64,000 nt of DNA from Amycolatopsis granulosa (lineage in GTDB: Bacteria; Actinomycetota; Actinomycetes; Mycobacteriales; Pseudonocardiaceae): assembly GCF_011758745.1 (NCBI RefSeq), contig NZ_JAANOV010000001.1, positions 1,426,001 to 1,490,000 on the forward strand, written 5' to 3'. How positions within the stretch are numbered: position 1 is the first letter of the stretch; every line of letters begins with the position of its first letter. The translations under genes and the position numbers were made by a program. The notes under the pieces were generated by a model. That model had not been told where the DNA came from. It saw only the letters and a list, made by a program, of their open reading frames with translations, and searched no databases. Shown here piece by piece: positions 21,001 to 41,257 of this stretch.

Positions 21001-24000
21001 CGTGCTGGTGCACGAAGTGGTCGAGCACGTGCGGTTCGAGCTGAATCGCGAGGAAGTCCGGGTGCTTGGGGGACTCCGGTGACTCCGCCGAATCCCACGC
21101 GTTGGGCCGGTTCCCCGCTGCTTCGGGCAGGGCGATGTCGTCGGCCGCGGGCGGCGCGAGCACCGCGGCCAGGACCTCCTCGCGACGGCCGGCCGCGGTG
21201 TCCGGGTCCAGCGCGGCGACGTGGGCGCGCGCGGCCACCGAGTCGCGGGTCTCCAGGCGCAGCACGTACCGCTGCCCGGTCCCCGGATCGGTCCACTCGG
21301 TCGTCACGCCGGGATCCCTGGTGTCCCACCGGAGCTCCCGCGTGTCCAGCCGCAGGCCAGCTTCGGAAAGCGCTTGCAGCACGGCAGCGGAGTCGTGGGC
21401 GAAGGTCGCCACCTCCGGCATCCGCACCGAGTAGCGGACCGGTTCGCCGGGCGCGGGTTCCGGCGCCAGCGGGTCCGGCAGCAGGCGCGCCCCTCGCACG
21501 GTCGTCGCGACCGCGTGCGCGAGGGGCCGCGTCGCGGGGTCCAGGTAGGTGGCGACCGCACCGTCGGCGAGAGTGCCGAGACCGCCCACCAGGTCGTGCA
21601 ACGTGCCCAGCGCCTGGCGCATCAGCATGTGCACGACGAACCGCTGCTGCGTCGCATCGCCGGGCGCCTGGCCGGAGATCCGGATCTGCGCCGGGGTGGA
21701 CTGCGTTCCGTCCGCGCCGACGCGCGGCGGGATCACCTCGTAGGTGCCGGGCGGCAGCTCCGAGTCCACCGTGGCGGCGACATCGACGGTGACGTCGTCG
21801 TAGAACAGCCGGACGCTCCGCGCCCCGATGTCGGCGCGGACCGGGAGCGTGGCGGTGTTCCCGTTGAGCTGCACCGGCATCGCGTCGCCGAGACCCGGCG
21901 CCGTTGCCGCCGGCGTCACCACCGTGACCGGGGCGGTGGTGCGGCCGATCCCGCGCAGGTAGTCCTCGATGCGTCCGGCGACGTCCGCGGTGTGGTCGGC
22001 GGTCTCCGAGCGGACGGTGCCCACCGTCCGCCGCACCGGGTCGGTGGGCAGGTCCGCCACGTCGCGGAGGTTGACCGCGTGGTGCGGGCGGTCCAGGCCG
22101 GGCACACCGTCGGCCAGGGCACGCAACGCCCGGTCCAGCAGTCCGTCCAGCTGGGCGGCGATCGTGCCCTCCCCGACGAGGATCGTGGCCTCGGCGGTCT
22201 GCCGGGCCGTGCCGTCGGCCCCGACGAGCCACGAACCGGGGTCGACGTGCACCTGGTTCGCCGGGACCCGCGAGTCCAGCCCGATGTCGAACGCGATGCG
22301 GGTGCCGCCGTCGAAGTGGGCGAGCAGGGTGCCCTCGGCGGGATCGCCGGTGAGCCCGGTGACCCGGCCGCGGTCGGGCAGGGCGGTGGAATCGGGCGCC
22401 GGCCGGTTCTCCTGGCGGTGGCGGAGCGCCTCCCCGAGCGCCTCCTCGTCGGCCGCTTCCCCCGTCGCGGGCTCACCGGTCCGGATGGTCTGCGGGAGCG
22501 CACGCCAGGAGGTGCCTTCGCGCAGCCGGGCCATCCCGCCGCGCGGCACGGAGCGCCCGTGGGCGTGGGAGACCGAATCGGCCCGCACGACCGGCGTCTG
22601 CGCGAAGAGGTGACCGAGTGCCTGCGTCATCGCGATGCGGCCGGTGCCGGCGGCCTCGCTGAGGTTGGTCGACATCTGGGAGGCGATGCGGATTTCCGCG
22701 GGCGCGGTCTGCGCGTTGCCCTCGAAGCGGCCGGCGTGGGTTTCGACGGTGCCCGCGGGCAGGGTGTCGTCGAGCACGAGCCGCGCCTGCACGACGTGGC
22801 CGTCGCGTGAGGTCAGGGTGAACAGCCCGGTGTTCTTGTCCACCTCGGCCTGGCCGTCGACGCGTAGTTCGTGGAGCACCTGGGTGGCCACCGCCTTCGC
22901 GGCGTCCGGCCAGTGTGTGGTGCTCTCGGGCGCCGCCTCGGGCCCGAACCGCCGGGTTTCCCCGGCGACCGTGCGGTGGTCGCTGGTCTTGGGCTGGTCG
23001 TCCGCGGGCGGCTCATCGGTGTGCGTGCGGTGCTCGTCGAGCCCCGGCACCTGGTCACCGGCGGCGCGCCGGTCGGTGATCCGCGGGCCGTGCTGTTCAC
23101 CCTCGCCCGGCTGCCGGGTCTGCTGAGCGTCGGCGCCGTCCGGGCGGGCGGTGTCCGCGGACGGGTGGCCGTCGGGGCGACCGGCATCCGCCGACTGGCC
23201 CTCGCCCTGCCGGCCGGGCTGCGCCGTCTCGCCGTCCGGGCGGCCCGCGTGGGCCGGCTGCCGGGCGGTGTCGTCGCCGGTGCCCGGCCGGGACGCGGTG
23301 TCCCCGGGCTGCCCGGCGGCCGCCTGCTGCCGGGTCTCACCGGCACCTGCGGCGGCGGTCTGCCGTCCCGCGTCACCAGCGTCCCTGGCGCTGCTGGCGG
23401 CTGCCGGCCGGGCGGCGTCAGCCGAGGTCGTCTGCCGGCCGGAGTCTGCTGTGGACGTCCGGTGCCCGGACTCGCCTGCGGTGCCGTTCTGCCGTGCCGC
23501 CTCGCCGGAGTTCCCGGTCTGCTGACGTCCCGGCTCCCCGGTGCGGGCGGAATCCGTGCTCCCGCCGCCGGTCTGCCGCCCGCTCTGGGTGCTGCCCGTA
23601 CCACGCGATCCGGCCTCGCCCGTGCGCGCTCCCGCGTTCCCGGCCTGAGATCCACCGCTCCGCGCATTCCCGGTCTGCGCATTACCGGTCTGCGTATTCC
23701 CGGTCTGGGCGCTCCCGGTCTGCGTATTCCCGGTCTGGGCGGCCGCGCTCCCGGCACCCGCGCCGGCGGCACCCGGATCGGTGAAGCCCGCCCAGGCACC
23801 CAGGTGCGACGGCGTGGCGGTCGGGGACGGCGCGACGAACCGGGTGAAGTCCGTGTTCGTCAGGTGCGCGAGGTTCATGTTGAAGCTCGCGAGGTTGTGC
23901 CCGACATCGTGCCAGGACGCTTCGCCGATGTAGCGTTCCCAGGCGCCGCCGACGGCGCCGCCCCACGCGGCGTCCTTGATGGAACCCCAGCTGAGCGGGT

Positions 24001-25402
24001 TGTCCGACCCACCGCGCTCGGCGCGCACCGGCAGCACCTGGCCGTGCTCGTTGACCGTGTAGCTGCCCCATTCGCCGGTGGTCGCCCACTGCCACGCGTT
24101 GCGCCCCCAGGCGTCGAGGTGCTTCGGGTCCGTGAGCGCCACCGATCCGAACTGGCCGAGCACACCACCGACGGCGCCGGTGATCAGGAACCCGTGCACT
24201 GTCGTCGCCAGGCCGATCGGCGCCCCGCCGAGGCCGGCGCCGGCGAACGCGGCGAGGGTGTTCATCAGGTGGTACGAGTAGTTGCCCCCGGTTTCGTACA
24301 TCGTCATCAACTGGGCGCCGACGTCGGAGGTGACGCCGAACATCAGCGCGCTGCGGAGGCCGTAACCGACCATGCGGTTGCCGAGCACCCGGCCGGTGGA
24401 CAATCCCTGGTGGCGGATGGCGCCCGCTACCGCGTCGTCGATCACCGTCCGCAGCTCGGCGGGCACCCGCTCACCCGCCGCGGTGGCCGCGCCGCGGAAA
24501 CGGTTTCCCAGCTGGACGGCGATCTCCCGGTTGACCGCCTTGCTGGCGAGCTTCCGGACCGCCTCACGACCGAGCCCCTGCTGGAGCGCCTCGCGGATCA
24601 GTCCCTTCTGCACCTCGTGTGCCGCCTGGCGCCCGGCGATGCTGGAGAACCGGAGGTTCGACGGGAGGTGGGTGACCATGTCCACGCCGCGCCGGACACC
24701 GGCCTGTCCGAGGTGCGTCAGGCCGGCGCCCGCCTTCTTCAGGCCCTCGGCCAGCCCGTGGGTCAGCGCGGCCTTCGACGCGGACCAGGTGAACTCCCGG
24801 GTGACGACCTTGATTACGATCGTCTGGATCGTTTCCCACGCTTTCAGGACCACCCGACGCAGCACCGGACCCAGCGCGCCGAGCACGATCGGGACCTCGA
24901 GCAGCGACGCGCCCCACGTCGGCAGCGCGCTGATCAGACAGCGGACGAGCTCGTAGGCCATCATCAGCATGTTGGCCTGGTAGCTGTTCTTGGTCAGCAC
25001 GATGGTCTGCAGGTACTGCTGCGTGCCCTGCGTCAGCTGCCCGGCGCCGTCGGCCAGCTGCAGCACCGTGCTGGCGAACTGCGACATCATCATGCCGAAC
25101 TCGGCGGGCGCGGCACCCTGGTACACCTGCTGGATCAGCTCGGTGCCCTTCGAGGCGGCCACTTGGAAGTCGTAGGTGTCGCCCTGCTTCTCGGCCCAGA
25201 ACTTGACGATCTCCGCCACCCGGTCCGGGTCGGCCTTCGGGTATTCGCCGAAGAGTCCGTTGATCACGGTGGTGGCCTTCACCGGGACGATGGGGAACCC
25301 GAGGAACTGGTTCCACGCATCGATGAACTTGTCGATCTCCCCGGCGAACTCCATCATGGCGGTCGCGAAGACGTCGGTGGGCCCATCCAGTGGATTGCTC
25401 AC
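1..25402 (-). CDS. Giant WXG100-like type VII secreted polymorphic toxin-like protein (partial, runs off left edge)
   Basis: One minus-strand frame is open from the GTG at 25402 to the window edge, at least 8,467 codons. The start is set by GGGGAGG six bases upstream. Residues 1-150 are helical and resemble the WXG100-like N-terminus of large actinobacterial ESX toxins. Residues about 344-417 are hydrophobic and Gly/Ala-rich. Residues about 548-788 are a Gln/Thr/Gly/Pro linker with QTGNx repeats. Then come beta-rich repeats with the motif LPxGTxE...PAxIRI (near 22750 and 21740), a HipA-like kinase module (about 2100-2375), and two EndoU-type modules (about 2560-2770). The part beyond residue 2965 has a duplicated 190-residue unit, an amidohydrolase-like module, hydrophobic helices and Rossmann-like repeats. 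Residues 2775-2961 of this frame are Gly/Asp/Ala-rich with poor third-position GC, because the true coding signal there is in another frame (16522-17079). So this may be two genes joined by a frameshift: toxin 25402 to about 17076, then a second protein. It is last in an operon with the YbaB-like and EspC-like genes. Confidence 0.8.
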   Translation of the reverse strand, partial: MSNPLDGPTDVFATAMMEFAGEIDKFIDAWNQFLGFPIVPVKATTVINGLFGEYPKADPDRVAEIVKFWAEKQGDTYDFQVAASKGTELIQQVYQGAAPAEFGMMMSQFASTVLQLADGAGQLTQGTQQYLQTIVLTKNSYQANMLMMAYELVRCLISALPTWGASLLEVPIVLGALGPVLRRVVLKAWETIQTIVIKVVTREFTWSASKAALTHGLAEGLKKAGAGLTHLGQAGVRRGVDMVTHLPSNLRFSSIAGRQAAHEVQKGLIREALQQGLGREAVRKLASKAVNREIAVQLGNRFRGAATAAGERVPAELRTVIDDAVAGAIRHQGLSTGRVLGNRMVGYGLRSALMFGVTSDVGAQLMTMYETGGNYSYHLMNTLAAFAGAGLGGAPIGLATTVHGFLITGAVGGVLGQFGSVALTDPKHLDAWGRNAWQWATTGEWGSYTVNEHGQVLPVRAERGGSDNPLSWGSIKDAAWGGAVGGAWERYIGEASWHDVGHNLASFNMNLAHLTNTDFTRFVAPSPTATPSHLGAWAGFTDPGAAGAGAGSAAAQTGNTQTGSAQTGNTQTGNAQTGNARSGGSQAGNAGARTGEAGSRGTGSTQSGRQTGGGSTDSARTGEPGRQQTGNSGEAARQNGTAGESGHRTSTADSGRQTTSADAARPAAASSARDAGDAGRQTAAAGAGETRQQAAAGQPGDTASRPGTGDDTARQPAHAGRPDGETAQPGRQGEGQSADAGRPDGHPSADTARPDGADAQQTRQPGEGEQHGPRITDRRAAGDQVPGLDEHRTHTDEPPADDQPKTSDHRTVAGETRRFGPEAAPESTTHWPDAAKAVATQVLHELRVDGQAEVDKNTGLFTLTSRDGHVVQARLVLDDTLPAGTVETHAGRFEGNAQTAPAEIRIASQMSTNLSEAAGTGRIAMTQALGHLFAQTPVVRADSVSHAHGRSVPRGGMARLREGTSWRALPQTIRTGEPATGEAADEEALGEALRHRQENRPAPDSTALPDRGRVTGLTGDPAEGTLLAHFDGGTRIAFDIGLDSRVPANQVHVDPGSWLVGADGTARQTAEATILVGEGTIAAQLDGLLDRALRALADGVPGLDRPHHAVNLRDVADLPTDPVRRTVGTVRSETADHTADVAGRIEDYLRGIGRTTAPVTVVTPAATAPGLGDAMPVQLNGNTATLPVRADIGARSVRLFYDDVTVDVAATVDSELPPGTYEVIPPRVGADGTQSTPAQIRISGQAPGDATQQRFVVHMLMRQALGTLHDLVGGLGTLADGAVATYLDPATRPLAHAVATTVRGARLLPDPLAPEPAPGEPVRYSVRMPEVATFAHDSAAVLQALSEAGLRLDTRELRWDTRDPGVTTEWTDPGTGQRYVLRLETRDSVAARAHVAALDPDTAAGRREEVLAAVLAPPAADDIALPEAAGNRPNAWDSAESPESPKHPDFLAIQLEPHVLDHFVHQHGPAATDPRHQRIASRWFDAGTDPRTELGALLRDVARRPDWVRWNAESGHWFVRGERSGVVVAMVLDREGNILAARPDPGPHTEPGRPAPGDASNWIAPLVAAVGAVDKALLLPESATSLADLGSGSPIRYGIHLAEPGDARTVLDALDGNGFARAGVTADGRVVVVHQDTGQALHLRIEEPSAEPVPEDGAVPALDEAVRAVPGATLTTGDPFDHTVTVAAGTFAADAQAVIDDLAARGLVPQDADIDWGRRGRHGWRTVWRTPDGRTVTVRLTTAEAVTHAARAAEIARQLAELGRGDVLKRRWLAARQLEIQGSAPVPDGADRLRLPESPVTGFSVQHSPGLASVVVLDGGGQSTPEDLARRVADELRAGENAWAGDDVLVTVADGVTRDALAADPRALGQALARELGTVLDGPGAEGTPRLYGVAPRGWADPSYPAAAVVSDDVLADLRPDAGQPGGRVVGPSWFGGDDVMDRLREAVQSIAGEPAEILSPARGLFGAFEVRGTHRGLTLTAIVRADGTVESARVADGPLRTVPVRPPAVPGTPGAEPAPAEPGLAQAVTHRFDPQTGGDHSGGVPPAGPELTTVLRWSHGLDGHQVRARALLDVAEGMDPRQQAELLRRGITGQQLFDTGRYQRHWESKGWPYRDSALLRVAERDARIINTALAGQALPGLDGMTEVPGRRGSLPGALFQGPDASWYVKAPTSTEQAEVEVLAGELYRMVADAVRAGTGIDAPLPETRLVRLEGRFGENRPLGVASRWVDNTGPVTSLAPVSEEHRRAFWALFGADAWLGHSDLHGYEGRNVVGTPRGPMRVEFGGALTHTSTGAPKSAVDGHLPFGPAVTEADVLRSPVRSPRTAELFRGMPADLERASVRAVASISDDAIRRAVHATVSDPALAGQLTETLIARRDHLAARYAEGTTEPARRPEQEQDAEPAEVRFLDRLVAAERAAGDAARAMRSFAGGKVAEYVGARLGIPGPVTLERAGDAPGHYTLRRTDGTDAAVVRIHPDLAGLRAELAVLGPALPVAFTGKAALAGDEVGMAVVRVTADRTVPEAIAAFGDGTRPNGWDAVANHPRFPSPEDLRLPPERTAHIFDGDETGGGHRSGLGKPNKTEFPSRWGDDRAVSDIIERVARHPDHAEWEEGPQTWRLTAERDGVRVAVVVLPGYGILTAYPEQGRGVVRNPPPAPPPRSATPVTVPPKVAKRLASKLGPSSRAPGAALFPAAWWNEPGGIERVLAEAADEAIRQDRIEDVPERDKQQLVRAIYAGVRVDIVVDKQNKILDARPDPNGPGVRVNPERGEGGGRDAVRGTGGRTDGEAAGTVRGPAGAGGPASGDAQPGRGGVAADGPGADRVAEPGGQSGVDPGTSGTADVAGDVRATGTSEPAEPAAGAGDRAADGPDRGEQSDGAADRGDGEDAAADVRGADPGDGPLGTDGRPGRAGLAGSDPGDRGTAEQAPHPGDGGGTPDAVAAAGRDGSAEAGAGGTSPAVTADADHRPAHPGELAPAADHVVASLGTSRTEIGAFAKRGAQTIADALGLTVDEVERRIDDKLAEAFELSPRGIDRAFGGDRAAWNRLSPYLTASAVYDWESGRVGLAAGNPVDVVAAGLVKEVVTSFRVSPAEEARSATGSLAELLLDREKRDLRVVLAWVKSLDGRFSPELSEVRTWTPELLDEVVEWRYPSSLDHVDRFTTALRRGDPVVEPSLGRDRSLVKTMQQQIQKLLGMAHVRVAETLHGMRVVAERRGSRFTLHIRDRAARSPSRVSGTAAEFEASLPLARLGEMSIPLVSDMVARLVENSADAAARHPEVSAAPLSAEIARNATTMAGLDDFLSDLEVMDSESAVILTATDQAGRALALDVRVGSTWSEPRLWLTTSHPDMHRLILPAESTPGEQQRAIAEALRAVAAQRAVLAGSERIPGAGEYNAEGWVDRKEFQQLLPDVAKAFEHLKHALPAGSTPELSIFFEWDEFDSAVATLKAGWPNPSAAEQHPVPLTVQISKLHDSLVRMAEWFDRHEPGLTTRAHVRAGASALEQLHRQRVLRAWMETIGGPLDRRFLHRTPARGELAREHLSAALGRLIGPEARNDGGRWETVAAKLLPDRLGAVSTADGVSLGDLVEIAEVVYRGEGQSELVTRILDAAARVAEQTHLPRRARAALDAVTAEARGLERALATAELGVLDPVADALARLRSSLFALALHGIDVSTPNWMPAEPSVTDGPVLPGRPPKPVPGLNLIGGGSGVWGSRTPTVWDYAFKAVGHAVALGGQMRGKPAAAVMMLHFLGNSGRDFILDPHRVLRDLTSLREDATTQVRFEALRLAHAAESRGQSGTFRFSTAWQRIDSPRVSNESKNWHWGVGTFYYAVSGAVTLVPGTDRARPDVRVDYQLHIYDRYSWEPGPGLLNIDHESWQRLHQAGIAREFDIVGSTEPLVHEGPISSLYDLEIPVRPATPAALLDELTRLAMPHVPPSVVDRIADQWFYYSAPNPDGDVVWIRTEPGTRSIVVSTPPSGDDGGWDERLHWDAAESAYGKGDRRVELLIDGRPTDGLSGAADTIRVIRPDGTRASLPFRGVYSPGTDAADALPGRSGVVRELDGAVQSALRQYRESDAARLPGRTLVLSEVWPEGEAVTDSAVVDPTVAEVFGSVLPGVSAARPVADPVDGRVLWLIEFDSGMEVALQVRANEALSRPQLYLPPLHVHTRVEQLAAAELTVPPVPVTATDRRMALETALRQALDLLPRAVDSMTGPLLETQPEDRRPAVTSLVPEAVTSPGAKLREWQLYQSLALSERGMPREPGRTVPSPGDAVPQHLRPGSLGEVSGDFVWTGAYRKLIERQGPLYLVSTVDPAGMAAKRGLFTDSSYFPSREDVRSIQERRDREVRMAVSTSDLVVAGTTLLSHLVNHEILIYEHYTPGGVDVDGSSLLLGGPVPGTSKVLHVEVPIERISGWWRATVTAMGAIHVTRWEDNPEFKGVPGPAEVVLNRIDDVGRAEIADFAKRGAGVVAEALGVSADEVVRRIEEKAASSFALTRGGLLDAFPDDEAARGRLAPYTGASAVYDWESGRVGLRPRQTLDVLAAGLVKEVVTSFRVSPAEAARTATGSPAELLLDREIQDHQVVLAWVQSLDGRLSPELAEVREWTPELLTEVLRWRYPSSVDHVDRFTTALRRGDPLVEPSLGREDDLWLLREAEGALRGGPGGHPLHVTARMGEPGRVALQFTYRGGRTATVVLEPSRSPDEIAHQVRLIEQRFGTELPIDAFVTSEEVDAVLRELGIRDRAQVTLAGHSDGVTMTAVDSEGRTHRIEFRSGDDLEVHPAVPGDDVARVVVPSQADPRVRLAGLLAALRAVLPTVPDETVGPDETVGPDETGVRDAQLASVDDADDVPVRPQVEPAVVQSLHDEVNAAIAEAGLRDHGAKVGSIRRDDHIQVVVLDRSGRRHQAEISLGDALHVEPLGHVAGADRFAVPRDGDPAVRTRLIAAQLRGLAAEWALETAEPFKRGPQEIQSPEPAQVRPRRAPVVEPVRPGFVRLGTGTDGLTRAVAETTVALMAGHPVRVGATRTDNGDLRLEVHYGDQRPFTVVVREGTQVWPYFQDLRDGVPVRDDTFGRQDDNSYRIELPAAALGDTLPAVVAHAVQQITLSRFRTQLNTPQAVRFSHDPGEAVPAAVAERGVARAGLGSSASGFLVTDGPETGAVTVRATDAGGRPFRVEFRTIQGIDAPRLRVAAGDHVAYVVEVPPAATQATQVRMVAEGMRAVLGFRHAVLGLGDPPPPAAPPGADSQAGLLPVIPNTGLPAEFGVRALDPMALFPQADPLRTAAGEIVGRVDEDRAALNRVQHAYRAAMTAIEDDEAYIPWVAKRLGELMGVPANDSQVLDALASAYDLTRPEIEARVIEPGGTLQKTHVVEPPPGVAREIIGQNAEITARLVAEHRLRLLVAAENAGNRLTEAEQQWSRSRDTALRELERIRQDAIDDGLPEWTARTATSRAESRLHLENSRPEFKPGKDKVNPARTFGSRGFDVRAVRGARRGLARAIREHEPARRAAEARYRAAAIDLREARNAVNERRGWVPGLLGTEGRTDTGVRTVANALNLPVRYVTASRAAEAALPFEGNRTEILRLAATEVRARQARLDAAIETYLAAERARDEAHRAYVDGVRAAVNAAADDGIKLVEIARRTGLTDAEISEITRRVVAAGRAETESRYGLPYVDRYLEGRGLLAKLARRFLGTSALLDVNGYIAKFEAIDPNSPDALQQLLELGVSLDSALALFTNRLSTRDISDVHHHLLSYALDNQYLGQGREHADAVKTRMQELLAWLKAEPKASLAERQLRYRAARGDLGRILYSPIRERAIGLAAASGATYYGLVHSLRAGLIDKKSVLELQGKLADVLMLKMYNELPPDVRWRADVGLVGTRWDITGAEGYDLTMLMAEFAYLGAEQTDDKEAIKQLLGDEANTTYNPKWINQLKLSVAAAVQVKSDLAEGRLTGTAAEEARALIGDPASVADPVAKAEYLEKLVRNGETLRYLLRSAGHPEKAASLPAEVPEMFNPHLLSKLRGNRMTGQTFLLHKDNGFATVDLNGLFRAGPPDERGLIPMMALMKHHPEFRNNRIIWAHLGVGNWTHLTPEHLDMLDRMMQLVPGLNYDFSWTPLGQYMRDDPAVFERFIQFAVKYQDRLIFGSDGISMMPSTQLDRHSTEMEPVYRAIIDRYPDGEAIVAKMRGGNYVRVMSDAERDASQRFVDEYFSRHHNAWVEVLSKMPEHVLDGFHAKAKALVENGFVPHPDQAVGPGTGMGDGSDVRSAETPDDRSQRFVDEYYSEHRDAWLATMADAPEEVWQAFHARAQELWDRGLRPREGRAAGPAGTRDGVWQDNPQIQSSIRAYQIVYGDFRHAEAAKQVVRDNREQIRKTARERAAQIRDRKGLQPEETDKLGLDAPVEALIAAHYALQAAEGLSPEERQQFVGKVLEDVSATEEQRLASEETGEKLHRYWRKRGLIGWATSAAVSGAGATAIVMGAVPAAVVGAATTIAGGAFVARSLLSSLKVAHGQDIRVTTESMMERERVDVESVHRLMKMTRKLMVNEISPGGKEFRDKFAHIVERVVTQFETKVKQMLIDYIATVHFRLPDGVTAESRRVQANMQFSRLKDYVNRIIGATSDSINRLNPTSGATGRGSHVLTAGTWLLNGLNQLHQGLVGAGLTAWVSIAYLPSSLLFGLTSVPGVWSQYDPVARPGMRKIQNILAFPLLTVANAALTVQYIKSGTWFQTVAATTLTAATTKLSQIGIKVELKEGRVGAKLGPGAMFFAQSALTAVGTAMITSNPVALTAVGAFALTGPAIYLARGAWARFRAIERFAAPRHSRYEGASPERAQRGGTAALPARDGAPTGDGTPIGWGDLRPALDEINRQARQPDPATPAQRSGLAAKIADNLRDGDAEKLAAHTKRTPREPANRRGPQPPQSSDGPGRTVRRGHEGPFGTGRVDTDTAPVAAPRTGRDPGTLGGQAFSYHSTPGSVPGQDGVPQRRTHVIGPKWETARAEEPGSGLQDAVRAWMSRHDGDETDGVWSFRHRNGDTFRMRIGVDPDLDRPHLAEPGADGIAEAKLPSMPGERTDRNLLVGTALTRAAGLLPTVSQAVVPADAPVTDLVPGPGRPVLSEEDIRAAFDRVVHGTEFAGVPVRVVAVTTAGSSVELRFASADGGVVAVRTIFREGDVLRVRHDHLAAAPEAAALDEFLRERYREWGVSSVDNVLAGAAAVTAALAGQTWAPGPDGRDSAQQVIAALTARLGTLRDGADHLARQTELGAAAGAAQTLRRYGVADAAALHDRIAAVEDLLRRARDGGELPSPRDIARLGAPGRAALEVAAAVHLRQDLRVPAREPAWRPEPPVRLALASGADLALEPRTAVYDEIVLDELPRHEGTGGFGRLTGEAWNLLTADGRLAVGVPAGASPGHAAELRASLRQWFTHVEQVRTPDGERIVASMPRGRAMLLPPAAGAVFVAGDDIAATLPDGRFEQVRFDDLPPAAFTGPAIAAVANAMQALGDGGALAITSSVRTARHLPDLVQALVASGATEIHADSDVAVAITARKGEGGTTGIGRVYREAVHRLRSAGAHADGAAPQLRAALAHARTMAGTTAGTPTPAGPVTVTLENWRHTELSGDVLAQLADALPAGSRIRITTSAAASTAVIRTVLDAAGVEVTELTGGDRTVVIGHKREDPARPAPGGQFAPDGATSATSATDATDATTEAATARSGDLAPEIVLRGVRPDPRTGGVAEVVDAAWRNLRGDGRVVVELEPGVAAETVRDTVERYFGEVGEDGHGRIVASAKRDRPVHPGLQDAPRLVIRSRAPDGAAVEPASPVGNAATVAGSGGITSAHFDVVPAAGSSVSALTELVDAVPPGGRLVMTTSDDVAGYFPDLIAQATALGATDVRVEVVWPGTAAVEIGKGPLDRHAAAETGRPVRVRVAGLSAEHLTPGALRLLGSALPPGATVAITTGVAADPGAITTALAESGVDARAHLSSGALTVEGVKNTEPPPGPASTPDAPPPTPPPTPPGPTGTDRTGDTGGPEQGTEPPEQEPPAREGIGSAGDIVDAVRLLGDVLPRAAAPKVLGSAVQFTAGGTRVTIFLHSGGVLNTPEETGDPIVARSALIEEDGDHRIEVHLATGISRVQATREIAYHLGRTLHELRHEQQGRSLFRGLLGRRKPALTGDLAGRVTILEAMARQAEAGEQTRAPAEMRRFAGRVARDLPPGLSLADQLSERARAMLAGPVPPAAADGNPVAPRTRRSGEDPFTVNYLDPVWQGLPTPATPARHTPAVPADALHAAVTAGDNVYTLLTHELDLPALHERFGEHLPQVVRIAQAHGAGYLAGLAERWAGDLERGLQAALAVPAHVPVPRSPADAAPWFGFGPGEVNAFTAWLERAGIGTDLSTVDLLRLREVAALLVLGDHLVTGPQRREFAEAEPLVLGDAFHSLPDGVRAAALLPGSDLDFTRPVRAEIERLPQADQV
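1450..3350 (-). other. Rossmann/methyltransferase-like repeats within the giant protein
   Basis: Residues about 7351-7985 repeat a pattern like the second half of SAM-dependent methyltransferases: AWNLLTADGRLAVGVPAG, AWRNLRGDGRVVVELEPG and VPPGGRLVMTTS, each followed by a helix and a strand ending in RIVAS or similar. No SAM-binding glycine motif is clear, so these could be structural or degenerate copies. Beyond them to position 1 I recognise nothing. Confidence 0.35.
5010..6035 (-). other. Hydrophobic helices within the giant protein
   Basis: Residues about 6456-6798 contain several candidate membrane helices: a Gly/Ala-rich pair near 6030-5920, one near 5470-5350 (AWVSIAYLPSSLLFGL), one near 5310-5250 (ILAFPLLTVANAAL) and a pair near 5130-5010. 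A charged, coiled-coil-like stretch separates the first pair from the rest. Such a block could insert in a membrane to deliver attached modules; that is inference. Confidence 0.5.
6950..7350 (-). other. Amidohydrolase-like TIM-barrel segment within the giant protein
   Basis: Residues about 6017-6150 of the giant frame read like the second half of an amidohydrolase-2 barrel: a strand RIIWAHLG with the conserved His, then HLDMLDRMMQLVPGLNYDFSW (usual YVDLSW), then RLIFGSDG with the usual metal-site Asp. The surroundings (FATVDLNGLF before, and helical repeats with RFVDEY after) are not typical, so this may be a captured or rebuilt enzyme domain. Resemblance only. Confidence 0.45.
11481..12043 (-). 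repeat. Internal duplication, copy 2 (about 565 bp)
   Basis: Second copy of the unit at 15871-16437, same orientation and frame. Stretches such as CCACATGGTCCA and the bases coding RGDPLVEPSLGR are nearly unchanged, which points to a fairly recent duplication or to gene conversion between the copies. Confidence 0.85.
15871..16437 (-). repeat. Internal duplication, copy 1 (about 565 bp)
   Basis: This stretch is closely similar in DNA and protein to 11481-12043, both in the giant frame. Shared stretches include SAVYDWESGRVGL, LVKEVVTSFRVSPAE, AELLLDRE, RYPSS and DHVDRFTTALRRGDP. The copies are about 3.8 kb apart. The unit starts right after the immunity-like frame ends, and frame 1 regains good codon usage there. 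I do not recognise the domain. Confidence 0.85.
16522..17079 (-). CDS. MafI-like immunity protein, out of frame inside the giant ORF
   Basis: This 185-residue frame (GTG start at 17079, TAA at 16522) has strongly G/C-biased third positions, unlike the giant frame across the same bases, so it is probably the translated one. GGCGGAGG lies just before the GTG. The product is soluble and helical and looks like two copies of one unit. The first is ERFADRL...GEWLLTVQALI...PVSTRERAELRTLLE; the second is FGERIP...QDWLDLTQATVALL...PVTAAERRTLWLLLD. This pattern resembles MafI-family immunity proteins, the known partners of EndoU-type MafB toxins. It starts directly after the EndoU-like end of the toxin. 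A TGA overlaps its GTG (GTGA) in the third frame; one extra base in the G-runs just upstream would end the toxin there, as in a normal toxin-immunity pair. Family assignment is from memory of the pattern and not from a search. Confidence 0.6.
   Translation of the reverse strand: MTLSEEQVAARMARLPERFADRLAPEDLRAVTRNRDAGEWLLTVQALIGSLSRADSPVSTRERAELRTLLETFAQPARASRLSPLLERATAQLTALTEVSSLTEPQIAETAKTLRPTFGERIPETDRWELTDAQDEQDWLDLTQATVALLNKHRIPVTAAERRTLWLLLDAMDLPKQGLAELPRR
17098..17720 (-). other. Tandem EndoU-type nuclease modules within the giant protein
   Basis: The first copy (about 17720-17445) has the hallmarks of bacterial EndoU RNases: HIFDGDE with His at residue 2562, GGGHRSG with His at 2573, KTEFPSRWGD, and the terminal GILTAYPEQG...VVRNP. 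The second copy (about 17355-17098) keeps ALFPAAWW, VRVDIVVDKQ, ILDARPDPNG and GVRVNP but lacks the two histidines, so it is probably inactive. The EndoU family ends at this NP motif, so a stop would be expected near 17080. The MafI-like frame starts there. Confidence 0.7.
18270..19100 (-). other. HipA-like kinase module within the giant protein
   Basis: Residues about 2100-2375 of the giant frame have the order of motifs seen in HipA/PI3K-like kinase domains of bacterial effectors. These are a substrate-loop lysine in SWYVKAP, a helix with AEVEVLAGELYRM, the strand VASRWVDN, a catalytic-loop-like DAWLGHSDLHGYEGRN, and a metal-binding-like segment RVEFGGAL. The usual acidic residue of the last motif appears as VEFGG where related proteins often have VDxGG, so activity is uncertain. 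The fold call is from motif resemblance only. Confidence 0.5.
23663..23737 (-). repeat. 15-bp tandem repeat coding QTGNx pentapeptides
   Basis: Five back-to-back 15-bp units on the plus strand, each ending in CCGGTCTG, code for QTGNT/QTGSA/QTGNA units in the linker of the giant protein. They lie in a larger 0.7-kb Gln/Thr/Gly/Pro-rich stretch (about 23760-23040) that separates the secretion domain from the rest. Confidence 0.8.
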
Positions 25403-25466
25403 CGCTCACCTCCCCAACTCACCACGAACCCACACCCGGACCGAAATCGTGCGACGAACGCCGTGC

Positions 25467-25796
25467 TCACGTCTGCACGTTGTTGACCTTCCTGAGGTTC
25501 TCCAGCTCCGCGTCGAACTGGGTCAGCGCCGCGTCCGCCACCATCTTGCCGATTTCCTCGAGTTGATCACCGAAGGTGGCCATCGCCTTCAGCACCTGGT
25601 GAGGAGCTTCACCATAGGTCTTGAGGAACTGGGCGCCGAGCTTGTCCGTGCCGAACGCCTCCGGTGTGGCGATCCGGTCGTGCTCGCCGACCGCGGCCCT
25701 GGCACGACCGGCGAAGTCCTTACCCGTGCCGCCCAGGTGGCGGCCCATACCGGCGATCTCATGGGCGCTCACGTTCTGCTGGACGAACCCGGTCAT
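25467..25796 (-). CDS. EspC-like type VII secretion target protein
   Basis: A 109-residue all-helical protein (MTGFVQQNVSAHEIAGMG...) with two long helices and no WxG turn. It fits the EspC/DUF2580 kind of small ESX target that sits before WXG100-like toxins in actinomycetes. Its ATG overlaps the stop of the YbaB-like gene (ATGA), and the giant gene starts 64 bases downstream, so the three are probably co-transcribed. It may pair with the toxin N-terminus for delivery to EccC; that is inferred from family context. Confidence 0.7.
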   Translation of the reverse strand: MTGFVQQNVSAHEIAGMGRHLGGTGKDFAGRARAAVGEHDRIATPEAFGTDKLGAQFLKTYGEAPHQVLKAMATFGDQLEEIGKMVADAALTQFDAELENLRKVNNVQT

Positions 25797-26212
25797 CGCT
25801 CGTCCTTCCGCTCGGCGTAGACCTCGGCATCGGCGCGGTACAGGTAATCCATGTCCCCGGCGCCGTCGAACTGGAGCTGGTTGCGCAGTTCGGTGAACTC
25901 CGGGGAGAACTGCTCGGCCATGATCTCCTGGATCTGGGCCGAAACCTGGGCGACCGCTTCGGCGGAAGCCGCCAGAATGGCGGCCTGCAAGCCGGGCGCG
26001 TCGGGTTTGCGGAACACGCGGGGGTCGATCTCCAGATCGACGAGCTGCCCGCGGGGGCCGACCACCACCTTGACCATGCGGTCCGGCGACCACGCGACCC
26101 CGGTGATGGCGAGCATCCGCTGGTGCGTCTTGGGAATGTTTTCCGTGACCTTCTGCAGTTCCTCCAGCATGTCCTGAAAAACCGGGTCTACGCGTTCGGA
26201 AGAGAACTCCAC
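25793..26212 (-). CDS. YbaB/EbfC-like protein of the ESX toxin operon
   Basis: The start is the GTG at 26212, with GGGAGG five bases before it. The 139-residue product has the YbaB pattern: an N-terminal helix, a beta core (ITGVAWSPDRMVKVVVGPRGQLVDLEIDP) and a long C-terminal helix. YbaB proteins bind DNA, but copies in front of WXG100-like toxins are common and are more likely secretion partners or chaperones. First gene of the toxin operon; the next gene overlaps it by four bases. Confidence 0.75.
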   Translation of the reverse strand: MEFSSERVDPVFQDMLEELQKVTENIPKTHQRMLAITGVAWSPDRMVKVVVGPRGQLVDLEIDPRVFRKPDAPGLQAAILAASAEAVAQVSAQIQEIMAEQFSPEFTELRNQLQFDGAGDMDYLYRADAEVYAERKDER

Positions 26213-26292
26213 GACTACCTCCCATCCCTTCGTCCATCCCGCACCGCGGCGACTTTGCCCCGGGCGGTGGGCACTCCGATAGCATTCGGCGC

Positions 26293-27567
26293 GTGCACGC
26301 CAAGCGTCTTCGAACGGCACTCGTCACCGCGGCGACCGGGCTCGCCGTCCTCACGGTGGCCCCACCGGCCGCGCAGGCCCAGCAGAACTGTGTCGTTCCG
26401 GGACAGCTTCTGGTTCCCGTCCCGTGGTCCCAGCAGTTGCTCGCCCCGGACCGGGTCTGGCCGCTGAGCACCGGAGCTGGGCAACGGGTGGCGGTCGTCA
26501 GCACGGGCATCACCGACAACCCGCTGCTCGCCGGGCACATCGCCGAGCGCGCAAACTTCGCGCCGCCGGACACCCGGCCCAGCGGCAACCCCGACTGCGC
26601 CGGCTCCGGCACCGGCGTGAGCGGCATCATCGCCGCACAACCGAGCGATGCGGCAGGATTCCACGGTGTGGCTCCCGGTGCGCAGATCCTGTCCGCGAAG
26701 GTCGTCGGTGACCAGTACCCGGCGGACCGGAACCCGCGCGGAACGGTGGCGCCCGAGACGCTGGCCGCGGGGATCAACTGGGCGGTCGACCGCAACGCGA
26801 CCGTGATCGCGGTGCCGGTCATCACCTACGACGACAGCCCCGCGCTGCGCGGTGCCGTGCAGCGCGCGCTGTCCCGCGACGTCGTCGTCGTGGCTGCCGT
26901 CGGCCAGCGGGCGGCGAACGAGCCGCCCGGCCTGGTCCCCTATCCCGCCGGCTACGACGGCGTGATCGGCGTAGGCTCGATCACCGAGAACGGCGGCATC
27001 GCACCGGACTCCCGTCCCACCGCGGTGGACCTGGTGGCACCCGGGGCGCACGTGATCACGACCTACCCGAACAGCGGACTGGGCACCGCGTCCGGCACCG
27101 AGTTCGCCACCGCCTACGTGGCCGGCGCGGCCGCCCTGGTCCGCGCCCACCTGCCCCATCTGTCCACTCAGGACGTCGCCCGGCGTCTGTTCGCCACCGC
27201 GACGCCCGCTCCGGAGGGCACCGGCAGCGCATCCTACGGTTACGGCCTGGTGAACCCGTACCAAGCGGTGTCCGACGAGGTGGTGGCCGGCAACCCGGTG
27301 GCGCTGCCGCCGATCGTGCCGACGACGGTCCCGCCGGATGTCGCCGCCCGCCAGGCGGCCGAGGACCGCAGTGACACGTGGGCGCTGGTCCTCGCCGCGG
27401 CCGGTCTGGCCCTCGTGGTGCTGGTGACCGCGATCGTCGCGTTCGGACCGCGTGGCCGTCGCCGCCGCTGGCGTGCCGGGCTCGCGTCCGTCCCGCAGGA
27501 CCGGCCCGAGGACGAGCGCCCCGAACCGCCGGTGGAACTGTTCAGCGACCGCCCCAAGCGGTCGTGA
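26293..27567 (+). CDS. mycP: Mycosin-family subtilase with all catalytic residues replaced (pseudoprotease)
   Basis: This 424-residue protein has mycosin layout: signal peptide (residues 1-28), subtilase domain, Pro-rich stretch, membrane helix near 363-385 (WALVLAAAGLALVVLV) and a basic cytoplasmic tail. The active site is gone. The catalytic Asp of VAVxDTG is Ser70 (VAVVSTG), the His of GHGT is Ser105 (GSGTGVSG), the Ser of GTSFA is Glu270 (GTEFATAYVAG), and the oxyanion Asn of AAGN is Gln205. The reading frame is intact with normal codon use, so the loss looks tolerated or selected and not decay. Mycosins are known to stabilise the ESX membrane complex independently of proteolysis, which may be the remaining role. 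It diverges from the toxin operon across 80 bp and faces the esx genes. Confidence 0.9.
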   Translation: MHAKRLRTALVTAATGLAVLTVAPPAAQAQQNCVVPGQLLVPVPWSQQLLAPDRVWPLSTGAGQRVAVVSTGITDNPLLAGHIAERANFAPPDTRPSGNPDCAGSGTGVSGIIAAQPSDAAGFHGVAPGAQILSAKVVGDQYPADRNPRGTVAPETLAAGINWAVDRNATVIAVPVITYDDSPALRGAVQRALSRDVVVVAAVGQRAANEPPGLVPYPAGYDGVIGVGSITENGGIAPDSRPTAVDLVAPGAHVITTYPNSGLGTASGTEFATAYVAGAAALVRAHLPHLSTQDVARRLFATATPAPEGTGSASYGYGLVNPYQAVSDEVVAGNPVALPPIVPTTVPPDVAARQAAEDRSDTWALVLAAAGLALVVLVTAIVAFGPRGRRRRWRAGLASVPQDRPEDERPEPPVELFSDRPKRS

Positions 27568-27670: not shown

Positions 27671-27958
27671 TCAGATGCTGAAAAAGCCCCTTGCCTGCTG
27701 GTCCTTCTCGAACGCGTTCTCCGCTGCCCGGATCACCGCGTTGCCCATGTCGTTGTGCGTGCTGGCGTAGCTGTTGACGCGCTGGTTCCAGATATCCTGG
27801 GCGTCGTCAAAGGCCCTGGCCGCCGCACCTTTCCAGTCGTCGGCCAGGATCGCCTTGGCCCTGGTCTTGAACTGCTCGAACAGCTGGATCAGCTCGCCGG
27901 ACTTCGTGATGTTGGTGGTGCCGGTGTCGCCGACCGTGCCGTCGTAGCGCAGAACCAT
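27671..27958 (-). CDS. WXG100 family secreted protein (EsxB-like)
   Basis: A 95-residue helical hairpin protein with the WxG turn in ADDWKGAAARAF, which is diagnostic of WXG100 proteins secreted as dimers by ESX systems. It is last in the eccD-eccB-esx run, 31 bases after its partner, so the two probably form a heterodimer. Third positions are less biased than in neighbours, as is common for abundant small secreted proteins. Confidence 0.85.
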   Translation of the reverse strand: MVLRYDGTVGDTGTTNITKSGELIQLFEQFKTRAKAILADDWKGAAARAFDDAQDIWNQRVNSYASTHNDMGNAVIRAAENAFEKDQQARGFFSI

Positions 27959-27989: not shown

Positions 27990-28340
27990 TCACACGGACG
28001 CGGTTCCGCCGAGCCGGCCGAAGTTCATGCCACCCGAACCCGGCGCGATGGCGTTGATGACGTTCTGGCTGTCGAGATCCTGGTTGGTCAACAGGTTCGT
28101 GGTGCCGGTGATGCCGTTGACCAGGGTGTCGAGGATGGGAGCCAGCTGGCTCTTCCAGAAGTTGAGCATCTCGTCCTGCTTGCCCAGCGCGGCGGTCGAC
28201 GCGCCACCGAGCCAGCTGGCGCCGACCACACCCGCGTAGTCGGCGTGGATGCTCGAGCAGAGCTGCTCGCCCTGGTCCTTGGCGTCGCTGAGGAGAGTCC
28301 TCAGGTTCTGGGTCTGTGTCTCATCGAGTTTCAGGGTCAT
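27990..28340 (-). CDS. WXG100-like secreted protein (EsxA-like)
   Basis: A 116-residue protein with a central ASWLGGAS turn (W-x-G) between two helices, so WXG100-like, with a longer Gly-rich tail (GSGGMNFGRLGG). It precedes the second WXG100 gene and is likely its partner. A 150-base gap separates it from eccB and may hold its own promoter. Confidence 0.8.
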   Translation of the reverse strand: MTLKLDETQTQNLRTLLSDAKDQGEQLCSSIHADYAGVVGASWLGGASTAALGKQDEMLNFWKSQLAPILDTLVNGITGTTNLLTNQDLDSQNVINAIAPGSGGMNFGRLGGTASV

Positions 28341-28491: not shown

Positions 28492-29892
28492 CTACGGGAC
28501 CGCTGTCACCATGGCCGCGGCGGGGTTGAGCGTGGGGCCCTCCGGGATGCGCTGCACCAGCGCGGCCGGCATGTCCACCGCCGAGGCCGCCGAATACCCC
28601 AGCTGGGCCAGCACTTTGTCGTCGGGCACCGGGTACCGCAGGCCGGTGTCGGTCACGAGCGTGTACGCCCCCGCGGTGGCGGTCGCCGAGGGCAGCACCC
28701 GCACCACGGCGACGCTACCCGGCGGGACCAGCACCCGGTCGGCCAGCTTGGTGCCGGTGCTGCTCTCCAGACTGGTGCTGATGGCGGCGTCCAGGACGCT
28801 CGCGTCGCCACCGACCGAGATCACCGGATCGGTGCGGGCGTCGTGCGTCTGCGAGCAGAGCGTCACGTCGGACCCGTCGGGCACGGTGACCAGCTCCGGG
28901 GGCAGCGACGGCGGTGCCGCCTCACCCTGCGCCGGCGCCAGGGCCGTGCTGGTCGGCGCGGCGTTCGCGGCCGCGGCGGGGATTTCCCTGGGCGTCACCG
29001 AGTACTGGCCGGACAGGATCCGCACCTGCAGCTCGGTCAGCGGGGCCAGCCCGTCGGCCCGGACGAGGTAGTACTGCACGCCGCGGGAGAGCGGGTAGTA
29101 CACGATGTCACCGACGCTGGACCCACTGAGCACTGTGGACGGCGAGCCCTGCCCTGGCACGTCGATCCGGCCGATGTCCTGCCCCACCGGCAGGCCGTTC
29201 AACCAGGCCGTGCCGGCCGCCACCGCCGTGGCCCTGGCGCCGAACAGGGACCTGATCACGGCGGCGTCGGTGATCCGGTAGCGGTGGTTGTTCCACACGA
29301 GGTGGACCGTGCCGTCCGTGGCGTCGCGGGCCAGGATCGCGCGCTGGCCCAGCGGGGTGCCGCCGGGCATCGCCTGCCCCACCAGCAGGGTCGTGGTGGT
29401 CATCGGCCCGCCGGCGAAGTTGCGGCCCAGCACCGAGCACATCGTCCACGGCGTCGCGGCGGCGCGGCCGGCGGGCGGCAGCGAGGCCGGCGCCCCGGGG
29501 ATGCCGACCGCGGGCCTGCGGGCCAGCCCCGCCAGGTCCGCACCGGACACGCGGTACGGACCGGCCTTTTCGGCGCTGGTCAGCAGCCGCGCGGAGGCGT
29601 AGTTCAGCGTCGGCTGCAGCTCTCCGGAACGGTAGACGAACGTCGCGCCCGTCTCGCGCTCGATGACCACCGCACCGTCGGTCTTCCAGGACGTGCCGCC
29701 GACCCCGGTGAACACGCCGTACACGCCGAAACCCGCGGCGACCAGCACCGTGATCATGATCCCGGCGAACAGCGCGCCCACTCCGCGCCGCAACGGCGTC
29801 AGCTCCGGATCGGTCTCGTGCACGATGAGCGCGGAGGTGACCCGCTGCATCATGAACTGGTAGGCCTGCAGCTGGTCGCGACGAGTGGGCAC
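28492..29892 (-). CDS. eccB: Type VII secretion protein EccB
   Basis: A 466-residue protein with the EccB layout: a short cytoplasmic N-terminus (MPTRRDQLQAYQFMMQR), one membrane helix near residues 38-60, and a large extracytoplasmic beta-rich repeat domain. EccB is a core subunit of the ESX membrane channel. It follows eccD by 18 bases, so the two are co-transcribed. Length is normal for the family. Confidence 0.92.
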   Translation of the reverse strand: MPTRRDQLQAYQFMMQRVTSALIVHETDPELTPLRRGVGALFAGIMITVLVAAGFGVYGVFTGVGGTSWKTDGAVVIERETGATFVYRSGELQPTLNYASARLLTSAEKAGPYRVSGADLAGLARRPAVGIPGAPASLPPAGRAAATPWTMCSVLGRNFAGGPMTTTTLLVGQAMPGGTPLGQRAILARDATDGTVHLVWNNHRYRITDAAVIRSLFGARATAVAAGTAWLNGLPVGQDIGRIDVPGQGSPSTVLSGSSVGDIVYYPLSRGVQYYLVRADGLAPLTELQVRILSGQYSVTPREIPAAAANAAPTSTALAPAQGEAAPPSLPPELVTVPDGSDVTLCSQTHDARTDPVISVGGDASVLDAAISTSLESSTGTKLADRVLVPPGSVAVVRVLPSATATAGAYTLVTDTGLRYPVPDDKVLAQLGYSAASAVDMPAALVQRIPEGPTLNPAAAMVTAVP

Positions 29893-29910: not shown

Positions 29911-31311
29911 TCAGCCGATCGAGGCCATCAGGCCCTGGACATATGCGAAGAATCCGGTGATGAAGCCCGCGAACGGGATCAGGGCCACGATAGCGGTGAC
30001 GTCCACGATGTCGGCGATCCGGCCGAGCCAGGGCGAGGGGTTCTTGCGGCTGTACACCACCCCGGCGGCCGCGACCAGCAACGCGATCACCACCAGCGCC
30101 AGCAGGACCAGCCCGGACCCGACGTTTCCGGCGGCGGTGCCGAAGCACCAGCGGGTGAGCAGCGCGAACACCCACAGCCCGGCGGCCAGCAGCGGGATCC
30201 GCTGCCGCGGCACCGGGAACAGCCGGGCGCGCAGCAGCAGCGCCGCGCACGCGAGCAGCAGCATCAGCAGCCGGGAGCCGCCACCGTGCGCGGCGAGGAA
30301 GATCGCGGCGAGCGCGCTGATCAGGGCGCCACCGGAGAGCAGGCCGGTGAGCAGCTCGTCGGCGCGGGCGGCCGCGTCGAACACCGCGGGCGTGGCCGGC
30401 TGCGGCTCGTCGTTGAGCAGGTCGGCCGGACGCTGCGGGAGCGCGGGCAGCGGGACGCGGCCCAGCCGCAGCGACAGCCACGGATACCCGGGCAGCAGGC
30501 CGATCGCGATGGTCAGGACCAGCGCACCGGCCGCGTCCGGGGCCATCCAGTAGCCGAACAGCGCCCCCAGCGCGCCGAAGAACCCGGTGGCGATCGCCGC
30601 GACGAACACCCGGCTCGCCGCGCCGACGCCCAGGTAACCGACGATGCCGAAGACCAGCACCGCGATCATGCCGAGCAGCAGCTGCGGCGCACCGAACCCG
30701 AACAGCCGCAGGTGGTCCGGCGCGGTCGGCAGGTAACCGCCGAGGAACGCGTACGGCAGCGCCGAACCGGCGAACACCGCGCCCGCGTAGGCGTCCGGCA
30801 CCGCGCGGGCCACCACGATGCCCAGCGCGGTCAGGACCACCGCGGCGGCCAGCGCGACCAGGCCGGCGCCGAGCCAGGGTGGTTCGAACGACAGCGAGAC
30901 CAGGCTGCCCCCGCACAGCAGCACGGCCGCGATGACCAGCCCGGCCCGCCGGGTGGCGGCGCGGCCCCAGCTGCGCCCGTACCGGCGCGCGCCGCTGGCG
31001 ATGGCCTCGACCACGTCGTCGTACTCGATCTCGGGCCAGTCGACCGGACCGGGGACCAGGTGCAGGATCTCGCCGTCGCGCACCTCCTGCGCGGCCAGCG
31101 TCTGCCTGCCGTCCAGTCGTTCACCGGTGGGGCGCCGCAGCGACCAGCCGCCGTGCTGCTCCCCGGTGTCCGGCGCGTCCTCGCCCGCGTGGCGCAGGAT
31201 GTAGGGCAGCAGTTCGGCCACCGGCACGTTCTCGGGGAGCGCGACGTCGATCCCGCGCTTGGGCGTGGTGATGCTCACCTTCGCGAGGGTCGTGCCCATC
31301 GCCGACGTCAT
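29911..31311 (-). CDS. eccD: Type VII secretion integral membrane protein EccD
   Basis: Start chosen at ATG 31311, preceded by GGAGGTAGGGG, and not at the in-frame codon 51 bases upstream. The 466-residue product has an N-terminal ubiquitin-like domain (AKVSITTPKRGIDVALPENV...) followed by about eleven membrane helices ending at the C-terminus. This is the EccD pattern; it lines the ESX membrane pore. It diverges from eccC over about 120 bp. Confidence 0.92.
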   Translation of the reverse strand: MTSAMGTTLAKVSITTPKRGIDVALPENVPVAELLPYILRHAGEDAPDTGEQHGGWSLRRPTGERLDGRQTLAAQEVRDGEILHLVPGPVDWPEIEYDDVVEAIASGARRYGRSWGRAATRRAGLVIAAVLLCGGSLVSLSFEPPWLGAGLVALAAAVVLTALGIVVARAVPDAYAGAVFAGSALPYAFLGGYLPTAPDHLRLFGFGAPQLLLGMIAVLVFGIVGYLGVGAASRVFVAAIATGFFGALGALFGYWMAPDAAGALVLTIAIGLLPGYPWLSLRLGRVPLPALPQRPADLLNDEPQPATPAVFDAAARADELLTGLLSGGALISALAAIFLAAHGGGSRLLMLLLACAALLLRARLFPVPRQRIPLLAAGLWVFALLTRWCFGTAAGNVGSGLVLLALVVIALLVAAAGVVYSRKNPSPWLGRIADIVDVTAIVALIPFAGFITGFFAYVQGLMASIG

Positions 31312-31432
31312 GCTGCCCCTACCTCCAAATTGGACCCCGAGCCCGGCTGGGAGAGTATCCATTAAATCGCGACACTAGGCTTTGCGGAAAGCTCTATGCT
31401 GGCGCACCCGGGCGCTCGGGAGGTTTGCGGTC
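31312..31432. promoter_or_regulatory. Divergent promoter region of eccD and eccC
   Basis: This short gap separates the two divergent ESX operons. It contains a less GC-rich stretch (about 31350-31400) with TTTAAT on the minus strand and TATGCT on the plus strand as possible -10 elements, and GGGAGG before the eccC TTG. No clear operator is visible. Confidence 0.4.
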
Positions 31433-35386: not shown

Positions 35387-35431
35387 GACACCCCGGTACG
35401 GGGGTTGACAGGGGATGGTTGCCTGAGTGCG

Positions 35432-35470
35432 GCGGGTGCCGGCCGACCCCTACCCCCGGCCGGCACCCGC
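35432..35470. terminator. Strong hairpin between eccC and the next gene
   Basis: Perfect 13-bp arms (GCGGGTGCCGGCC and its complement) around a 13-base loop, 46 bases after the eccC stop and 37 bases before the next ATG. It could end the eccC transcript or reduce read-through into the ESX-associated genes. Confidence 0.7.
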
Positions 35471-35506
35471 TGCCAGCCAGGCAGCACGAGGTCAGGGAGG
35501 GACACC

Positions 35507-41008: not shown

Positions 41009-41257
41009 CTGCGGAGCCCCTTCCACCAGCCAACGATATAGCCGGACCCCGCCATGATCACCGCACGAAAACCCGCGGTGTTCGCGGCGGACCCGTAGCC
41101 GCCCCGCACCCTACCGCGACCCGGCGCGCCAGGGCTGGTGATGACCTGGCGTTTTCCCCTTGGCCGCGCGGCGCCGCGGTGTCGGTTCCGTGCCAGGGCG
41201 TTCGGCCACGCTGGCACCGGAAGCGCACTCTCTCCTGGCTGTCGGAGGCAACGGCAG

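Follow-up and report, generated by a model that had tools for sequence, protein, structure and literature searches.

Can an ESX (type VII) secretion system run on a mycosin that has lost its means of cutting? This question is raised by a window of 64,000 nucleotides (the whole stretch of DNA analysed; contig NZ_JAANOV010000001.1, positions 1,426,001 to 1,490,000) from the soil actinomycete Amycolatopsis granulosa, in which an ESX locus encodes a mycosin-like protein of the S8 family, the pseudo-mycosin, with every catalytic residue replaced. We consider it most likely, with a probability of about 0.75, that this exported, anchored and S8-folded pseudoprotease of mycosin lineage caps and holds the EccB ring of its own ESX system without cutting.

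Loss of the catalytic residues

The gene and its four altered codons lie as follows:

26293..27567, + strand: pseudo-mycosin (MycP-like S8 pseudoprotease), 424 amino acids, with a signal peptide, a C-terminal membrane anchor at about 360-388 and a conserved cytoplasmic tail at 390-424
26500..26502, + strand: Ser70 codon AGC at the catalytic Asp position, motif VAVV[S70]TG
26605..26607, + strand: Ser105 codon TCC at the catalytic His position, motif DCAG[S105]GTGV
26905..26907, + strand: Gln205 codon CAG at the oxyanion Asn position, motif AAVG[Q205]
27100..27102, + strand: Glu270 codon GAG at the nucleophile Ser position, motif SGT[E270]FATAYV

The sequence-only reading had proposed that Asp, His, Ser and the oxyanion Asn are all replaced, and this held: with the four motifs positioned by their flanking residues, Ser70, Ser105, Glu270 and Gln205 fall within them, and no catalytic residues occur at other positions in the alignment. 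A misalignment of the catalytic positions is ruled out by the invariant motif flanks. The catalytic Asp, His and Ser and the oxyanion-hole Asn that define a mycosin protease are thus all missing; canonical S8 proteolysis is impossible with these residues, and they would imply a lack of proteolytic activity.

The protein is predicted to have a subtilisin-like S8 fold and matches the Pfam S8 family at 107.6 bits (cut-off 21.8) and the mycosin (MycP) model TIGR03921 at 252.2 bits (E 7.8e-75), below the curated cut-off of 278.75. Because the triad, the oxyanion Asn and this cut-off all failed, we class it as a mycosin-lineage pseudoprotease. Hydropathy bears out the signal peptide and anchor proposed earlier: the N-terminus is signal-peptide-like, and the sole strong hydrophobic stretch, at about 360-388 (19-residue windows starting at 360-370, peak 2.85), coincides with a predicted helix at 348-389, together indicating a single C-terminal membrane helix.

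A conserved loss under purifying selection

Orthologs were found in 12 of 19 sampled Amycolatopsis genomes (that of the window and 11 others, at 60-84% identity), and no active ortholog was found among the 19. The triad is lost in all 12 and the frame is stop-free in all 12; the substitutions that the sequence-only reading suggested seeking in relatives are therefore a loss common to the whole set, and the refuting case that it named, active relatives beside a copy decaying here, was not seen. Position 70 is Ser throughout, 105 is T, S, V, N or I, 205 is E or Q, and 270 is E, Q, A or G. Compared with core columns, 105 is more variable than 97% and 270 more variable than 89%, 205 is ordinary (62%) and 70 is invariant, so not all catalytic sites drift.

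The ratio of nonsynonymous to synonymous divergence (dN/dS) ranged from 0.10 to 0.54 with a median of 0.28 over the 66 pairs of the 12 orthologs, calculated with a pairwise Nei-Gojobori script that ignores base-composition bias, though these genomes are G+C-rich. In four genomes mean dN/dS was 0.24 for the dead mycosin, 0.21 for EccB, 0.23 for EccD and 0.17 for EccC; at a second ESX locus of these genomes it was 0.157 for the active mycosin and 0.06 for its EccC. The dead mycosin is under purifying selection much like its ESX partners, and less than the second system. Catalytic residues have been lost from an S8 fold and the dead state is maintained by selection (12 of 12 orthologs, dN/dS 0.24), as in an S8 pseudoprotease. 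Sequencing error or decay is ruled out by the 12 stop-free orthologs and the dN/dS values.

A relic on its way out would also show all four catalytic residues gone, and a dN higher than that of its partners, as observed here. The intact frames and the dN/dS range speak against such a decaying gene, as does the cytoplasmic tail (390-424), whose entropy of 0.31 across the 12 orthologs is the lowest of six regions; moreover, one genome (G008) has kept its dead mycosin although the partner genes lie elsewhere. We regard a relic as extremely improbable.

A number of polar residues are identical in all 12 orthologs, and a new active site could in principle have been built from them (for example S70, H124, D101 and E210). 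Ser70, however, occurs in only three of 16 dead sequences outside the 12 orthologs (among 28 dead sequences residue 70 is S in 15, G in six, D in five and A in two), and H124 is also found in intact-triad relatives. Sedolisin (S53)-type catalysis, which uses a Ser-Glu-Asp triad and an oxyanion Asp, was rejected: that set is absent from all 12 orthologs, in which 270 is never Ser and 105 never Glu. Non-canonical proteolysis is accordingly very unlikely.

Columns lost and kept

We compared 129 intact-triad mycosins (many from Micromonospora) with the 28 dead sequences. In the former, 66 columns are at least 90% conserved. Half or more of the latter retain 56 of these columns; the ten that fall short of this are 70, 105, 205, 270, 86, 136, 173, 175, 274 and 292. 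Asn173, Ser175 and Pro274 are lost in 89-100% of the dead sequences; from subtilisin we take 173 and 175 to belong to the substrate-binding strand or wall and 274 to the nucleophile helix. Cys33 and Cys102 are retained in 28 of 28, presumably as the mycosin cysteine pair whose putative bond joins the N-terminal extension to the core. The dead-versus-active comparison shows which mycosin positions serve catalysis and which serve fold and assembly.

These columns also bear on whether the dead cleft might bind exported peptides and gate or check them uncut. In favour, the dead proteins retain the S8 fold and the majority of core columns, and S8 pseudoproteases with sensor roles exist, CspC being one. 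CspC and CspBA of clostridial spores, whose NCBIfam models gave weak matches here, likewise have an S8 fold without a working triad, though they are spore germination proteins without an ESX locus. The loss of Asn173, Ser175 and Pro274 and the wide variation at 105 and 270 are unlike a ligand site that has been kept, and we consider a substrate-binding regulator unlikely.

The conserved tail of the pseudo-mycosin is about 35 residues long and ends near PEPPVELFSDRP; tails of mycobacterial mycosins are shorter. Related endings (EPEDVF, PPVQLF and GEALF) were seen elsewhere in the subfamily, some on proteins with an intact triad.

The ESX locus around the pseudo-mycosin

As a mycosin would be, the pseudo-mycosin is encoded with EccB, EccC, EccD and EccE and with WXG100 proteins:

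25467..25796, - strand: small protein of 109 amino acids adjoining a giant frame; homologs at the same place in orthologous loci
25793..26320, - strand: YbaB/EbfC-like protein, divergent from the pseudo-mycosin; the listed frame overlaps the pseudo-mycosin, and the true start is probably inside
27671..27958, - strand: WXG100 protein, EsxB-like (Pfam WXG100 37.5 bits, cut-off 27.3), conserved beside the pseudo-mycosin
27990..28340, - strand: second small protein, EsxA-like by position and size only, with no Pfam or NCBIfam match
28492..29892, - strand: EccB, by family models, with a GIPGAP motif
29911..31362, - strand: EccD, by family models
31382..35386, + strand: EccC ATPase, by family models, with three Walker A motifs
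35405..36508, + strand: conserved locus protein with no Pfam match
36515..38662, + strand: conserved proline-rich locus protein of 715 residues, with a weak PPE-like stretch below the cut-off (17 vs 26 bits)
38784..39830, - strand: protein adjoining EccE, with no Pfam match; homologs in some ESX loci
39827..41026, - strand: EccE (Pfam EccE 63.4 bits; TIGR03923 89.3 bits, below its cut-off of 108)

Gene order was compared with 11 further Amycolatopsis-type loci (L067, L068, L069, L070 and L083-L089). The order YbaB-like gene, mycosin, two Esx genes, EccB, EccD, EccC and two further genes is kept in ten of the 11, or in nine of ten with L083 and L086, apparently a single species, counted once. 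The exception is L070 of G008, where the interval from the Esx genes to the gene after them lacks EccB, EccC and EccD. In this genome, a draft with 7% estimated contamination, one ESX system spans two contigs (L070/L285 and L290): EccE, EccC, EccD and EccB are on L290, and the dead mycosin, the Esx genes and the two locus genes stay together on the other contig.

A second mycosin within the same locus was rejected. Among the loci of our first compilation (stretches of differing length, with later-fetched loci outside it), two mycosin-like frames occur together in L153 and L158 only; both are Micromonospora records in which the gene is apparently broken into pieces.

A proposed cap without a blade

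The proposed role rests on mycobacterial models. Published work shows that secretion continues when the active site of MycP1 or MycP5 is mutated, and that the complex is restored by the mutant MycP1. In ESX-5 the EccB5 chamber is capped by a MycP5 trimer, whose active sites point into the lumen and which matters for the integrity of the complex. By analogy, the signal peptide would export the pseudo-mycosin, the C-terminal helix would anchor it in the membrane, and the S8 domain would cap the periplasmic EccB ring and hold the ESX complex together as MycP5 does in ESX-5: the same cap without a blade, leaving cargo uncut. It would then assemble with EccB and EccD and be needed for secretion, and the system would have no cargo requiring mycosin cleavage. 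The sequence-only reading held that only a structural role could remain; canonical proteolysis is indeed ruled out and the fold and ESX partners are kept, in the window's locus with the partners' motifs, while the structural role itself draws on published mycobacterial work.

Several observations weigh against this cap reading. The TIGR03921 score falls short of the curated cut-off, which some intact-triad mycosins also miss, and in a profile search the solved structures nearest by sequence were subtilisins (200.8 bits), with MycP1 lower at 183.8. The dN of the dead mycosin is 0.118 against 0.070 for EccB, which together with the lower dN/dS of the second-locus active mycosin indicates that constraint is somewhat relaxed. 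The GIPGAP motif, as an exact pattern, is present in 12 of 21 EccB proteins from dead-mycosin loci and not in nine (eight from distant loci and one from L089). Sequence by itself also leaves room for non-canonical catalysis.

MycP1, MycP3 and MycP5 (of ESX-1, ESX-3 and ESX-5) carry Asp-His-Ser; all three residues are missing from the pseudo-mycosin and from its 11 orthologs. Closer relatives in the same subfamily, the intact-triad mycosins of Micromonospora, Longispora and Dactylosporangium (37-46% identity, with ESX genes adjoining in L091 and L092), keep Asp, His, Asn and Ser; the pseudo-mycosin does not. The laboratory MycP1 and MycP5 mutants of van Winden et al. (2016) are likewise protease-dead and can still serve the secretion complex; they have one residue changed, whereas in the pseudo-mycosin evolution has altered four positions and maintained the result. 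We found no report of natural triad-less mycosins in the open full-text literature, which is weak evidence of absence since subscription papers were mostly out of scope. The question of protease versus scaffold has so far been approached through laboratory mutants; here evolution has made a similar experiment, more than once, and a dead cap kept in the type VII machine of a soil actinomycete and of its relatives suggests that the machine may run on the building role alone.

Active mycosins elsewhere in the same genomes

The sequence-only reading asked whether the genome holds another, active mycosin, and it does. Of six S8 matches, one at G000:C1:2638052, about 1.2 Mb away, is a mycosin with Asp, His, Asn and Ser intact (DHNS), and it belongs to a second ESX locus, where EccC, EccD, EccB and EccE also have matches. 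Likewise, intact-triad mycosins, one or more per genome, turned up in all six Amycolatopsis genomes searched with TIGR03921 (G002, G008, G011, G012, G013 and G017). Cutting for both systems might then fall to the active second-locus mycosin, with the dead one forming only half of a mixed cap. In sequence, however, these two systems are distant from each other (the EccC match scores 1316 bits, against 2938 for itself), and mycobacterial mycosins are said in one publication to serve their own systems. Such borrowing has no source in two genomes, both estimated to be 100% complete: among S8 matches at E up to 1e-5, none has an intact triad in G026, whose two matches read SSDQ and SEDG, or in G055, whose one match reads SQDA. 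Cross-supply is in our judgment improbable.

Accordingly, the idea that this locus is a test case for a protease-free ESX system survives in altered form: the window's genome has an active mycosin, and G026 and G055 are the cleaner cases and the stronger natural experiment. Natural ESX systems whose own mycosin does not cut, these two included, separate the two functions and offer a native background for the scaffold role.

In G074 two further S8 matches are not mycosins according to the model applied. G042 carries an S8 gene with its triad intact, and the 16 kb read around that gene showed no ESX genes. In the window's own genome, a 319-residue S8-like frame at L009:1417-2373 (- strand; genome positions about 1880244-1881074) carries Asp, Asp, Trp and Ser at the catalytic columns, with no ESX match in the 3.7 kb fetched.

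Spread and origins of dead mycosins

The mycosin-like sequences compared comprised 32 dead, 129 DHNS and one DHDS. This set was drawn by similarity to the pseudo-mycosin and is no census: some mycosins read separately are outside the 161, and six frames were left out as broken or non-mycosin (two each from L153 and L158, one each from L163 and L009). Four Dactylosporangium rows (L155, L156, L162 and L164) that read DHNA in one alignment and DHNS in another were counted as active.

Beyond the 12 orthologs, dead mycosins were found in the same family as Amycolatopsis (three in G272, one each in G135, G395 and G019, and a second copy in G011), in family f13 (G036, G060 and G069, with an active one in G050), in family f3 (two in G026, one each in G042, G055 and G074), in three Klenkia, in a Geodermatophilaceae metagenome-assembled genome and in Phytohabitans suffuscus. 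Some losses are partial: that of G135 keeps Ser without Asp, His and Asn, and those of Klenkia keep Asp and His without Asn and Ser. EccB and EccC both matched in the fetched stretch for 26 of the 32, and EccB without EccC for two (L027 and L279, short stretches); the four with neither are L090 (partners moved), L147 and L159 (short contigs) and L051.

A quick tree of 63 rows gave four state changes, three of them forced by starred branches. A careful tree of 55 rows gave two, grouping 25 of the 27 dead rows in a single clade of weak support (82/91), and a careful tree of 61 rows, in which the DHDS row of G065 was labelled dead though its triad is intact, gave four, three of them forced (bootstrap 4-6). 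Near-copies (94 of the 129 active rows) were dropped from the trees, which were built without mycobacterial reference ESX sequences; L047, L002, L155, L043, L154, L226 and L078 are absent from both careful trees, and L081 from the 55-row tree. All three trees support loss having arisen, as far as these sequences tell, at least twice. The recurrent, conserved loss of protease function in an ESX component is real.

In 394 genomes of the class, 25 matches were listed in 24 genomes, and the 23 that could be read were 22 DHNS and one dead, the window's own; this search ranked matches by likeness to one dead query, with three candidates scored per genome, and is no census.

Two single genes are worth recording. 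The third dead mycosin of G272 (L288:8698-9978, + strand) keeps Asp, has His replaced by Arg and Ser by Glu, and lies directly after an EccC gene. The DHDS mycosin of G065 (L277:6931-8505, + strand), the only mycosin of its genome, has Asp, His and Ser intact, an oxyanion Asp and, where GTS is the usual context, SDTS; it is possibly an early step of loss.

A giant open frame next door

1..25405, - strand: part of a 12,536-codon open frame (genome 1413798-1451405), candidate giant ESX cargo

This frame starts about 60 bases from the 109-residue gene beside the pseudo-mycosin locus. Its N-terminus has a WXG100_2-like domain (25.7 bits, cut-off 27) and an EndoU nuclease match lies inside it (32.3 bits, cut-off 25.3), which makes it a candidate giant ESX cargo of the interbacterial toxin type. 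The N-terminal 498 residues, conserved beside orthologous dead mycosins, gave 17 matching rows at 12 places: one locus in G272, one in G135 and, apart from the window's own, ten Amycolatopsis genomes. No match was found in the other G272 locus (L194), and the G009 locus was too short to tell.

A tentative and rather doubtful extension of the cap reading is that a whole actinobacterial ESX branch dropped mycosin proteolysis and runs an export chamber capped by an inert pseudoprotease. In Amycolatopsis this change would have accompanied giant-cargo export and may serve it: an active cap with sites facing the lumen would risk cutting such cargo. Among mycosins preceded by at least 6 kb of sequence, a divergent frame of at least 1600 codons lies upstream of 13 of 25 dead ones and 19 of 94 active ones; this filter missed L195, where the N-terminus comparison did find the giant frame. 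Since frames of this length also occur upstream of active mycosins, the link with the dead state is not exclusive and follows ancestry. At the other end of the locus, the proline-rich protein at 36515..38662 is a further possible cargo.
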